Origin: a virus
Virus record (IMG/VR): IMGVR_UViG_3300032240_002118
Coordinates: 1-30,826 of that record
Reading direction: 5' to 3' (one strand)
DNA: 30,826 bases
The position numbers and the translations under genes were made by a program. Positions 13,327 to 17,418 of this stretch are shown here, one piece after another. Within the stretch, counting starts at the first letter, position 1, and each line of letters begins with the position of its first letter. The notes under the pieces were generated by a model. That model saw nothing but the letters and a program-made list of their open reading frames with translations, was not told the origin of the DNA and did no database searches.

Positions 13327-14604
13327 ATGGCAACATTAACATCAGGACAAACCAAAAGTTTAAATTCATTAGGTGCAGCAACAGGTGTTGCAGCAGGACC
13401 AAGAGCATTATCAGCAGCAAAGGGAGATTCTACAGGCCCTATTGCAATGTCTTCATTCGCAATTGATTCCGTAGGTTCAGTAACTGGTTATACATACGCA
13501 GTTGAATCTACAAGTGAAACTTATACATTAGGGTTTACCGGTGCTGGTACAAATTTTGGTAGAATTAGTGGCAGAGCAGCAAACTTCACATGGAGTGTTC
13601 CTGCTGGTTCATATATAACATTAGGAACAAATAGTGGTACAACTGCTACTTTTAGTGTATCGGCAATGAATCCACAAGGTGTAGGTGCACAAAGTGTACT
13701 ACAAACAATTCAAACTCATACTATTAGAGCAATATTTGCAGATGGATACAATACTCATGCAACTGGTTATAACACTTCTAAAGATAAGACGGTTTATTCC
13801 GTAGATTCTTATGATGGTAACTCCGTTGCATTATGTTTAACATCTGATTCACCCGTAACAATGGCCGATGGTTCTATTAAGGAAGTTGGTCAAATTGAAG
13901 AAGGTGATAAACTAAAAGGATTTTCCTTAAACGGGTTATCCATTGATTCAGATGGTACATTTTATGATTGGTCTACAACTGAATTAAATACAACTGAAAA
14001 AGAAGTAACAGTTGTGAATGTAATATATTCATTTACTGGTAAATATTATAATATTAATAATGGTGAAATTACTGCTACATCAGAGCATCCATTATTAGTT
14101 AAAGATTCTACTGATAATTTATATAGATTTAAACAAATGTTTAATTTAATTATTGGTGATAAATTAATTAAATTCTCAAATGGCAATACACAAGAAATAG
14201 ATATAACATCAATAACAATTGATGAAGAAACCTCTGAAATTGTATCATTAGATGTAGAGGCAGAAGATACCTATTTAGTAAATGGATACATTACCCATAA
14301 TAAAGGTGGTAACGCATTTACAGATTTAGGAGCTCCTGGTGCACCAACCTCATTAGCATATGCATCTCCAAGTTTAAGTTGGGTGGCACCTACATCAACT
14401 GGAACAGGTGGTATTACTGCATATGATATACAAATATCATCTGCTAATACATTTGTTACAAATATAGTAGACAATACGGAATGGAGTACTACCACTATTG
14501 AAGTTAATACTTTATTAACGGCAGGAACATGGTATGCTAGAGTTAGAGCAATTGACCAAGGTCTTAAAGGTGCTTGGACATCTGCTTATTCATTTGTTAG
14601 ATAA
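13327..14604 (+). CDS. tail/adhesin protein with embedded intein-like Hint domain and C-terminal FN3 domain (425 aa)
   Basis: Three parts are visible. Residues 1-169 are a Gly/Ser/Thr-rich beta region of virion type. Residues 170-325 are a Hint (intein-like) domain: Cys170 starts CLTSDSPVTMADGSIKEVGQ (block A), ATSEHPLLV at 250-258 supplies the block B Thr and His254, and DTYLVNGYITHN ends at His324-Asn325. The 156-residue length leaves no room for a homing endonuclease. Residues about 337-425 are a fibronectin type III domain (PGAPTSLAY, SWVAPTSTGTGGITAYDIQI, TWYARVRA). The residue after Asn325 is Lys, not Cys, Ser or Thr, so this is a bacterial-intein-like domain rather than a classical splicing intein. 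Cleavage, or nucleophile-independent splicing, would separate or rejoin the N-terminal part and the FN3 part. It is the last gene of the fibre block. Confidence 0.85.
   Translation: MATLTSGQTKSLNSLGAATGVAAGPRALSAAKGDSTGPIAMSSFAIDSVGSVTGYTYAVESTSETYTLGFTGAGTNFGRISGRAANFTWSVPAGSYITLGTNSGTTATFSVSAMNPQGVGAQSVLQTIQTHTIRAIFADGYNTHATGYNTSKDKTVYSVDSYDGNSVALCLTSDSPVTMADGSIKEVGQIEEGDKLKGFSLNGLSIDSDGTFYDWSTTELNTTEKEVTVVNVIYSFTGKYYNINNGEITATSEHPLLVKDSTDNLYRFKQMFNLIIGDKLIKFSNGNTQEIDITSITIDEETSEIVSLDVEAEDTYLVNGYITHNKGGNAFTDLGAPGAPTSLAYASPSLSWVAPTSTGTGGITAYDIQISSANTFVTNIVDNTEWSTTTIEVNTLLTAGTWYARVRAIDQGLKGAWTSAYSFVR
13834..14301 (+). other. Hint / bacterial intein-like domain coding segment
   Basis: Cys170 is the codon TGT at 13834. 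His324-Asn325 is CATAAT at 14296-14301. The next codon is AAA (Lys). Catalytic residues for the N-S acyl shift (Cys, block B Thr and His) and for Asn cyclisation (His-Asn) are present. The downstream nucleophile is absent. Confidence 0.85.
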
Positions 14605-14673: not shown

Positions 14674-14943
14674 ATGGCAGAAAAAATTAAGTTTACGGAA
14701 GACGAAGTCGCACAAATCAACAAATTACGAATTGAAGTTGGGGCTGTTTTTACTGAATTAGGACAAATTCATATTGAAAAAAGAAGAAGATTGTCAGAAT
14801 TAGAAGAAAGAGAACTAGAACTAACTAAACAACATTCGGATTTAATTATAACGGAAGAAACCTTATTTAAAGGTTTAAATGAAAAATACGGAGATGGTGA
14901 TTACAACCCTACAACGGGAGAATTCACACCAATCGCGGAATAA
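14674..14943 (+). CDS. small coiled-coil protein next to the tail sheath gene (89 aa)
   Basis: Family not recognised. Residues about 8-72 are almost entirely charged and leucine-rich (KRRRLSELEERELELTKQ at 37-54), predicted to be one long helix or coiled coil. A short Gly/Asp/Pro-rich tail (YGDGDYNPTTGEFTP) follows, of the type that caps phage structural proteins. There is no membrane segment and no Cys. It has its own candidate late promoter and a second candidate promoter follows it before the sheath gene, so it can be expressed alone or with the tail genes. A role as a small virion or assembly protein is inferred from position only. Confidence 0.7.
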   Translation: MAEKIKFTEDEVAQINKLRIEVGAVFTELGQIHIEKRRRLSELEERELELTKQHSDLIITEETLFKGLNEKYGDGDYNPTTGEFTPIAE

Positions 14944-15000: not shown

Positions 15001-15036
15001 GTGTATCATTACACAAACTTAATAGGAGTAAATAAA

Positions 15037-17418
15037 ATGGCAGAAAAAATTGTATCACCTGGTGTATTCACAAGAGAAAATGATTTATCATTTTTATCAC
15101 AAGGTATTGGAGAAATAGGAGCAGCAATAGTAGGACCTTTTGCTAAAGGACCGGCTTTCCTTCCAACTATTGTTAATACGCAATCGGAATTTGAACAAAT
15201 ATTCGGTACACCTGATGGAGAATACTATACAGGGTACGCAGTACAAAACTATCTAAGAGAAGCAGGAACAGTTACAATTGTTCGTGTTGGTCACTTAGGT
15301 GGTTATTCACATGTAGCACCAATCGGTATCAAAGTAACTTTAACAAATGGTCCTCTTACAGGAACATATGCAAGTGGAAGTGAACATATCATCGGTACAT
15401 TACACGCTACATCAAATGGTAGTGAATCAACTGGTTTTGTAACTGGTTCAATCACATTTGCAAACGGAACATTAACTGATAGTTATTTTACGATTAGTGG
15501 AAGTAATATTGGTTATAATGGTTCAGCATCAATTGACCCTGCACAAGGAAATGATATTGGTGATGTATTTGGTGAATCCCCATTTGGAGCTAAAAAAGCA
15601 TATGTGTATACATACTTTGAAAAAACAGCTACTGATTTAACTGCATACTTATCTGCTGGTTCTGGTTCTATTTCATTAGTTCAATTACCAACTCAAGCAT
15701 TTATTGATGATACTTCATATGCAACTACTCCGTGGGTTAAATCTCAATTGATTAGTGGTCAAAGAAGTAACCTATTCCGTTTTCATACATTAGGTGATGG
15801 TAATCCATATAATACTGAATATAAAGTAAGTATTTTTAATGTTAAAGCAGCAGGAGTATCTGGTGCAACTGATTACGCAACATTCTCAGTAGTAATTCGT
15901 GGATTTAATGATACCGATAGAAAAAAATCAGTAAAAGAAACATATAACAACCTTAACTTAGACCCTGCATCTCCAAACTATATTGCTAAAGTAATTGGTG
16001 ATAGACATTTAACAATTGATGCAAATGGTAAACAAAGTGAAAATGGTGATTACGCAAATCGTTCTAAGTTAATTAGAGTAGAAGTATCATCTGAAGGTTC
16101 ATTCCCTATTATAGCAGCACCTTTTGGACATGGTGCGTATATCAATCCAATCGATGCAGCAGTAGAAACAATTGTTCCTGCAGTTATCTATTCAACCGGT
16201 TCTGCTAATAATACAGCATCATCTGGTTATAGATACTCTGGTATTGATTTAGAAACTACTGCAGTAAAAATAAATAATACACAATATTTAAAACCAATAC
16301 CGGGAACTGAATATAGTACTGGTAGAAATACTGATTTTACATTTGATGCAAACATTAATGCTATTGTGAATGGTGTAGTTTCAACCTATAATTTTGGTTA
16401 TTCATTATCAACTGATGATTCTGCTGATACAATTGCTAAAAGACAATTTACATTAGGATTTCAAGGTGGATTTGATGGTGTAACTCCAACAAGAGTAATA
16501 AGTAAAGGTTCTGATTTATCAGCAGGTAACTCACAAGGATTTAACTTAACAACATCAATTTCAAGTGGTTCAGTTGCATATGTAAAAGCAATCAACGCGG
16601 TATCTAACCCTGATGATTTTGATATCAACTTAATCGCAACACCTGGTATAGTTCGTAGATACCACTCATATGTATTTGATTACATAAGTGAAATGTGTGA
16701 GAATCGTGAAGATGTATTCTTCATTGGTGATGTAACTTCACAAGATGATTCAATTGATTTAGCAGTAGAACAAGGTGCAGCAGTAGATTCTAACTATGTT
16801 GGTACTTACTACCCGTGGGTTAAGACAATCGATAGAAACACCAACAAATTAACTGCAGTACCACCATCAGTATTGATGCCAGGTATCTACGCAGCAAATG
16901 ACGCGGTTGCAGCAGAATGGTTCGCACCAGCTGGTTTAAATCGTGGTGGAATCGTAGGAGCAGTTTCAGTATTGAATAGATTAACACACGCAGAGAGAGA
17001 TACATTATACGAAGGAAAAATAAATCCTATCGCATCGTTCCCTGGTGAGGGTATCGTGGCATTTGGACAGAAAACATTACAAGAAAAATCATCAGCGTTA
17101 GATAGAATCAATGTTAGAAGATTACTTATCAAAGTTAAGAAGTATATCGCTTCTACTTCAAGATACTTAGTATTCGAACAAAATACTTCTACCACTCGTT
17201 CAAGATTCTTAAATACAGTTAATCCTTATTTAGAAGCAATTCAACAAAGACAAGGTTTATATGCATTTAGAGTAGTAATGGATGAGACTAATAACACTCC
17301 TGATGTAATTGATAGAAATATATTGGCTGGACAGATTTTCTTACAACCAACAAAAACCGCTGAATTTATCGTGTTAGATTTCAACATCTTACCGACTGGA
17401 GCATCATTTTCAGCATAA
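15037..17418 (+). CDS. contractile tail sheath protein (793 aa)
   Basis: The sheath subunit wraps the tail tube and contracts to drive it through the cell envelope. The N-terminus has VSPGVFTRENDLS, the PGV-(F/Y)-x-x-E-x-D-x-S pattern that opens sheath proteins and links neighbouring subunits. The C-terminal quarter has NTVNPYLEAIQQRQGLYAFRV and a final strand pair (GQIFLQPTKTAEFIVLDFNI), the conserved sheath core. The middle, about residues 100-400, is more variable and includes Gly/Ser-rich insertions, as in the outer domains of T4-type sheaths. It is longer than T4 gp18 (659 aa). The start at 15037 is chosen because it has a TAATAGGAG ribosome-binding site and gives MAEKIVSPGVF. The earlier GTG at 15001 would overlap the promoter region. 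The tube gene follows, as in other myoviruses. Confidence 0.95.
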   Translation: MAEKIVSPGVFTRENDLSFLSQGIGEIGAAIVGPFAKGPAFLPTIVNTQSEFEQIFGTPDGEYYTGYAVQNYLREAGTVTIVRVGHLGGYSHVAPIGIKVTLTNGPLTGTYASGSEHIIGTLHATSNGSESTGFVTGSITFANGTLTDSYFTISGSNIGYNGSASIDPAQGNDIGDVFGESPFGAKKAYVYTYFEKTATDLTAYLSAGSGSISLVQLPTQAFIDDTSYATTPWVKSQLISGQRSNLFRFHTLGDGNPYNTEYKVSIFNVKAAGVSGATDYATFSVVIRGFNDTDRKKSVKETYNNLNLDPASPNYIAKVIGDRHLTIDANGKQSENGDYANRSKLIRVEVSSEGSFPIIAAPFGHGAYINPIDAAVETIVPAVIYSTGSANNTASSGYRYSGIDLETTAVKINNTQYLKPIPGTEYSTGRNTDFTFDANINAIVNGVVSTYNFGYSLSTDDSADTIAKRQFTLGFQGGFDGVTPTRVISKGSDLSAGNSQGFNLTTSISSGSVAYVKAINAVSNPDDFDINLIATPGIVRRYHSYVFDYISEMCENREDVFFIGDVTSQDDSIDLAVEQGAAVDSNYVGTYYPWVKTIDRNTNKLTAVPPSVLMPGIYAANDAVAAEWFAPAGLNRGGIVGAVSVLNRLTHAERDTLYEGKINPIASFPGEGIVAFGQKTLQEKSSALDRINVRRLLIKVKKYIASTSRYLVFEQNTSTTRSRFLNTVNPYLEAIQQRQGLYAFRVVMDETNNTPDVIDRNILAGQIFLQPTKTAEFIVLDFNILPTGASFSA

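Follow-up and report, generated by a model that had tools for sequence, protein, structure and literature searches.

A Fixed, Intein-like Hint Domain with an Invariant +1 Lysine in a Virion-Type Gene of T4-like Phages

Introduction

Bacterial intein-like (BIL) domains of type A (Amitai 2003, Dassa 2004 and Aranko 2013, as reviewed in PMC4031507) have a terminal His-Asn and no nucleophile at the +1 position, and when they splice, a freed amino group attacks the N-terminal thioester; the products of natural BIL domains are mostly cleaved, not spliced (PMC4031507, PMC7664689). Published accounts place BIL domains in variable parts of bacterial proteins (PMC7765530, PMC5874633). For the BIL2 domain of Tetrahymena, isopeptide formation with the side chain of a Lys has been reported (PMC8616854).

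Here, we analysed a 30.8 kb IMG/VR record of a T4-like phage from water (IMGVR_UViG_3300032240_002118; 30,826 nt, called the window throughout), in which the initial annotation had noticed an intein-like Hint domain inside a tail protein, with Lys instead of a nucleophile after the terminal Asn. The annotation drew an apt comparison (review PMC4031507) with BIL domains in which cleavage or splicing proceeds although no nucleophile flanks the C-terminal end. No paper on this family was found in the literature covered, which includes few subscription journals.

Results

The initial annotation had placed the Hint domain at 13834-14301, and these coordinates are exact: in the ORF reading, the profiles and the AlphaFold model, Cys170, TSEH and HN are intact and Lys comes next. 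The proposed position of the domain is likewise agreed by the ORF, Pfam and the AlphaFold model, with a beta-rich domain on its N-terminal side and an FN3-like domain on its C-terminal side. The gene is composed as follows:

13327..14604, + strand: whole ORF, 425 aa, made up of the N-domain, the Hint domain and the FN3-like domain (ORF reading)
13327..13833, + strand: N-terminal beta-rich domain, residues 1-169, without a named family (AlphaFold pLDDT 86.7, pTM 0.81)
13834..14301, + strand: Hint domain, residues 170-325 (profiles, AlphaFold model, fold matches)
13834..13836, + strand: Cys170, block A nucleophile (80/80 in the non-redundant set)
14077..14088, + strand: block B TSEH, residues 251-254, with Thr251 and His254 (His 80/80; Thr 79/80, Ser 1/80)
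14236..14274, + strand: block F, residues 304-316, EIVSLDVEAEDTY (alignment to 2lwy and 6y75; column counts)
14296..14301, + strand: His324-Asn325, block G (each 80/80; both synonymous codons in use)
14302..14304, + strand: Lys326, the +1 residue (133/133 distinct ORFs; 80/80 non-redundant; codons AAA 72, AAG 8)
14371..14586, + strand: FN3-like domain, residues 349-420 (Pfam fn3, a weak match of E 2e-4 that is below cut-off on the window ORF alone; found in 13/33 relatives)

The N-domain, whose C-terminal end is the conserved VDSYDGNSVAL, folds with confidence in AlphaFold; no confident PDB match was found for this model, nor any Pfam or PHROG match. For the Hint domain, the NCBIfam profile TIGR01445 (intein_Nterm) matches residues 170-258 at 27.7 bits (cut-off 24.5; E 3.9e-6), and is above or nearly at the cut-off in 30 of 33 relatives. 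Pfam Intein_splicing and PT-HINT are below cut-off for the window ORF and match many relatives. Searching with a family profile recovers the Clostridium thermocellum BIL structure 2lwy (E 3e-7) and Tetrahymena BIL2 (E 2e-6). In the AlphaFold model, the mean pLDDT is 83, with values of 67-94 for the blocks inside the Hint domain. The model aligns with the structures BIL2 6y75 (E 1e-9) and 2lwy (E 7e-7), with TM-scores by target length of 0.79-0.82, so that the nearest solved folds of the modelled Hint domain are those of BIL domains. A chance motif is ruled out by the profile match, the fold match and the conservation.

We then looked at the family as a whole. A whole-protein search gave 24 full-length relatives (identity 68-94%), and the same architecture was found by searches with the whole protein, a DNA pattern for ...THNKGGN (among the matches listed), an N-domain profile (207 relatives) and a Hint profile. 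The search of Hint profiles for phage homologues, which the initial annotation had called for, returned 270 relatives. Among isolated phages (INPHARED), there was no full-length relative of three family members, and only distant C-terminal Hint domains came up. The DNA pattern is biased towards Lys at +1, whereas the N-domain search and a search with a neighbouring gene are unbiased. In all 133 distinct ORFs that could be read from the Cys to the +1 position, Leu stands at -1 and Lys at +1. Clustering at a 90% cut gave a non-redundant set of 80 sequences (mean identity 0.53, lowest 0.40), in all of which Cys170, His254, His324, Asn325 and Lys326 are identical. Since only 20 of the 156 Hint positions are invariant, the chance that all four catalytic positions would be among them is P ~2e-4, if positions are taken as equal. 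The C-terminal part has four invariant positions among 100, Lys326 being one. In the same 80 sequences, +2 is G except for one D and one S, and +3 varies (G, T, A, S, V). Synonymous codons vary at the catalytic positions and at Lys326, the Cys codon being nearly always TGT. Block F departs from the usual pattern in the whole non-redundant set, with Ser/Thr307 where Asp is usual (F:4) and Asp314 where His is usual (F:13). One family member (L190) has a 289-aa ORF that stops inside the Hint domain, which is either a sequencing error or a truly broken copy.

The window carries T4-like tail genes, namely an S74 tail fibre, a sheath, a tube and a baseplate protein. Two of the genes downstream of the Hint gene recur with it:

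14674..14943, + strand: small conserved ORF, 89 aa (in 308/313 fetched loci with the Hint gene; adjoins the Hint gene in relatives)
15001..17418, + strand: tail sheath gene, downstream of the Hint gene (Pfam Phage_sheath_1, PHROG 23; in 307/313 fetched loci)

The 313 fetched loci overlap, as several searches return the same contigs. With the small ORF in 308 and the sheath in 307 of them, the Hint gene is a fixed tail-cluster gene in these phages; among the relatives, the listed distances place the sheath start ~390-420 bases past the Hint gene on the same strand. The term 'tail protein' in the initial annotation agrees with the location of the gene beside the tail sheath, and as a label it is drawn from position and domains; from these, the Hint protein is presumed to be present in the virion. 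Directly upstream lies a 332-aa ORF (window:12317-13315) without a convincing family match, which is beside the Hint gene in 279 of the 313 loci. The sheath itself, at 805 aa, is far longer than the 496-position PHROG sheath profile that it matches end to end. The tail fibre ORF (window:9270-11366) has a C-terminal S74 chaperone domain, which is of a known self-cleaving type, and the tail cluster may thus contain two self-processing proteins, the S74 fibre and the Hint ORF.

We next searched for copies without the Hint domain or with another +1 residue. The N-domain search, which is blind to the Hint domain, gave no Hint-less copy, and each readable member among the best 80 matches has the Cys and Lys at +1. 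The neighbour search with the 89-aa ORF, equally blind, gave a readable upstream gene in 74 of the best 80 loci, and all 74 belong to the family; some are cut by contig ends, and where they are covered, none is without the Hint domain and none has another +1 residue. A pattern for the spliced junction (VDxYDxN...LKG) had no match in viral contigs. Hence, no empty site was found in the N-domain, neighbour-gene and spliced-junction searches among the matches listed (best 80 per search), and rare Hint-less relatives may exist beyond these. The insertion site is fixed, with conserved flanks (VDxYDxN..L before the Hint domain and KG after it) and fixed gene neighbours, in phage. These results go beyond the initial annotation: in the sequences compared, Lys at +1 is an invariant of the family and not the lost nucleophile of one gene, and the Hint domain is never absent among the matches listed. 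Outside viral contigs, a scan of the genome_contigs set with the Hint profile gave 76 pattern matches, none confirmed as relatives, and no relative was found in plasmids. Probing with the L026 and L027 Hint domains for remote relatives gave the same family only, or nothing.

The Hint domain is under purifying selection, with a dN/dS of ~0.07-0.12 in those close pairs that have enough changes; the value for the window against one relative (L004) was left out, the Hint domain there belonging to another module. It is also the most conserved of the three domains, with a mean pairwise identity of 0.58, compared to 0.53 for the N-domain and 0.48 for the C-terminal part. The domain trees conflict strongly: neither the N-domain tree nor the C-domain tree is accepted by the Hint alignment, and vice versa (log-likelihood differences of 256-676, given with a warning on the number of replicates), and some pairs have an N-domain identity of 0.89 yet a Hint identity of 0.58. 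The three domains have therefore been swapped as modules between these phages, and the catalytic set and Lys at +1 are unchanged throughout this exchange.

Several other Hint proteins were noted as well. Two related ORFs, L409:2957-5323 (-, 789 aa; contig IMGVR 3300030419_004471) and L407:1228-3519 (+, 764 aa; contig IMGVR 3300047157_000197), have three Hint-like domains nearly back to back. Cys1 is absent from the first, and the last closes the protein with a terminal HNK; both ORFs score over cut-off for several Pfam Hint families. The second of these contigs also carries L408:1292-3802 (+), an 837-aa ORF with a proline/glycine-rich stretch and a C-terminal Hint domain ending in HNAKGGAPPG, which makes it the second Hint protein on a phage contig that also has a member of the window family. 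A 647-aa ORF (L413, on the contig of L040) has a Cys-rich stretch followed by a C-terminal Hint domain ending in HNKK, and a related ORF (L410, contig 3300012347_000377) has a single Hint-like match, which becomes degenerate towards its end. Phage NCTB (L320:21420-28679) has three clustered Hint genes by its tail fibre genes, BN7874_132, BN7874_135 (free-standing, 153 aa) and BN7874_136. A Lys immediately following HN is seen repeatedly among Hint proteins that are otherwise dissimilar, namely L413, BN7874_135 of NCTB (HNKVD) and LR756508 (HNKH).

Discussion

The fold, the motif set, its invariance, the fixed site and the purifying selection of the Hint domain are direct observations. The reading that we moderately favour is that of a fixed, permanently retained, type-A-BIL-like Hint domain in a virion-type gene of T4-like phages, which would join the two halves of the protein through the amine of Lys326. 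It is probable that the domain is active and processes itself, and the most likely useful outcome, at about even chances, is a ligation that depends on Lys326 and not just cleavage. In this scheme, Cys170 would accept the acyl group of Leu169 by an N-S acyl shift, aided by Thr251 and His254, to give a thioester that ends the N-domain. Cyclisation of Asn325, aided by His324, would cut the chain before Lys326, whose amine would then attack the thioester, thereby joining the N-domain to the Lys-Gly-Gly-FN3 part and freeing the Hint domain; cleaved halves would be the side products.

Because the side-chain amine of Lys is mostly protonated at neutral pH, the alpha-amine of Lys326 is more likely to be the attacker than its epsilon-amine. 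Any residue would supply the same alpha-amine, and the strict conservation of Lys therefore suggests a job for the side chain, which could be that of an acceptor, a helper of Asn cyclisation or a role in the finished protein. The departures of block F from canonical inteins could also give a different outcome. The idea of an acceptor has a precedent, since BIL2, the closest fold, is reported to make a Lys isopeptide; the amine linkage proposed in the initial annotation has the same precedent (PMC8616854). The further proposal of that annotation, that self-processing would give two alternative surface forms from one gene, is without support so far, as the sequences give no sign of partial processing.

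The strongest competitor of ligation, though itself unlikely, is that the Hint domain only cleaves, cutting at one or both ends so that the N-domain and the FN3 part come apart as the particle is assembled, with Lys326 either favouring Asn cyclisation or being left as the first residue of the FN3 fragment. The BIL domains characterised so far mainly cleave, and neither cut has a catalytic residue that varies; by itself, however, cleavage leaves the exclusive presence of Lys at +1 in every relative unexplained, and a loose FN3 fragment would need another hold on the virion. It is rather doubtful that the epsilon-amine of the invariant Lys replaces the +1 nucleophile and links the N-domain to the FN3 part by an isopeptide bond, in which case isopeptide splicing would, with the same doubt, extend to a large group of T4-like aquatic phages.

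In a further alternative, the Cys170 thioester would be passed to an amine of another virion protein, so that the Hint domain would act as a one-shot cross-linker of the N-domain, as BIL2 does with its ubiquitin-like domain. BIL2, the best fold match in the PDB, reportedly attaches the partner on its N side to Lys residues in other proteins (PMC8616854), and the Hint gene sits among tail genes, but an invariant acceptor Lys is already present in cis at +1 and there is no known partner protein, which makes such a transfer improbable. Still less probable is a dead structural relic, a rigid spacer between the N-domain and the FN3 domain without any chemistry. Beta-rich spacer domains are frequent in virion genes and processing has never been observed; nevertheless, the invariance of Cys1, the block B His, His-Asn and Lys at +1 at a mean identity of ~53% would be unexpected if shape alone mattered, and the Hint domain is more conserved than either of its neighbours.

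Class 1 inteins need Cys, Ser or Thr at +1 and come and go between alleles, and an ordinary selfish element of this class with a mutated +1 residue, although it would share the fold and the A, B and G motifs, is scarcely credible and was rejected, there being no member with a +1 nucleophile, no endonuclease and no empty site or insert-free allele among the matches listed, at a fixed site with fixed neighbours. A class 3 intein (no N-terminal nucleophile, and a block F Cys as part of the WCT motif) was rejected as well, as Cys170 is present and F:4 is Ser/Thr in 80/80 sequences. A Hedgehog/Hog Hint domain would have a sterol-binding region after the Hint domain and no terminal His-Asn step; here, HN is present and is followed by FN3.

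Inteins of phages are known mostly as selfish elements in genes of DNA metabolism (terminase, helicase, ribonucleotide reductase). The Hint domain described here looks obligatory and vertically kept in a virion-type gene of many environmental T4-like phages, and, if active, it would make covalent self-processing a part of the assembly of the tail or neck. The invariant Lys makes BIL ligation without a +1 nucleophile directly testable in one small protein, and the domain could also yield a new ligation tool.

Among known systems, class 1 inteins (gp41-1, Ssp DnaB) share the fold and blocks A, B and G with the window Hint domain. In the jumbo phages Phage NCTB, Erwinia phage Y3 and Alexandravirus (PHROG 38766), Hint domains likewise lie in or beside tail or virion structural proteins and are intact from Cys to HN in most cases. 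These, however, are C-terminal with a tail of 2-10 residues (HNAPVDQKH, HNAVMVAKK, HNTDIVAKAEKT, HNKVD, HNKH), have A, T or K at +1, and do not share the N-domain and FN3 domain of the window family. BIL2, from the Tetrahymena thermophila BUBL1 locus (6y75, 6tmm; PMC8616854), is the best PDB fold match (E 1e-9) at a sequence identity of ~20%, and in both, Lys is the candidate acceptor of the thioester; BIL2 is flanked by ubiquitin-like domains and has its acceptor Lys in the adjacent ubl5 or elsewhere, in other proteins, whereas here the Lys is the +1 residue itself. With the type A BIL domain 2lwy, the window domain shares the Hint fold, the block A Cys, the block B TxxH and the terminal His-Asn, together with the lack of Cys, Ser or Thr at +1 and of an endonuclease. 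It thus has all the sequence features by which reviews describe type A BIL domains, and self-processing is predicted for it. It differs from them in that +1 is always Lys and in block F, where Asn and His of 2lwy are replaced by Ser/Thr and Asp, and it occupies one fixed site with conserved flanks in a virion-type gene of phages. In summary, by sequence and modelled fold the window Hint domain fits the type A BIL domains, and it is unlike them in its setting.
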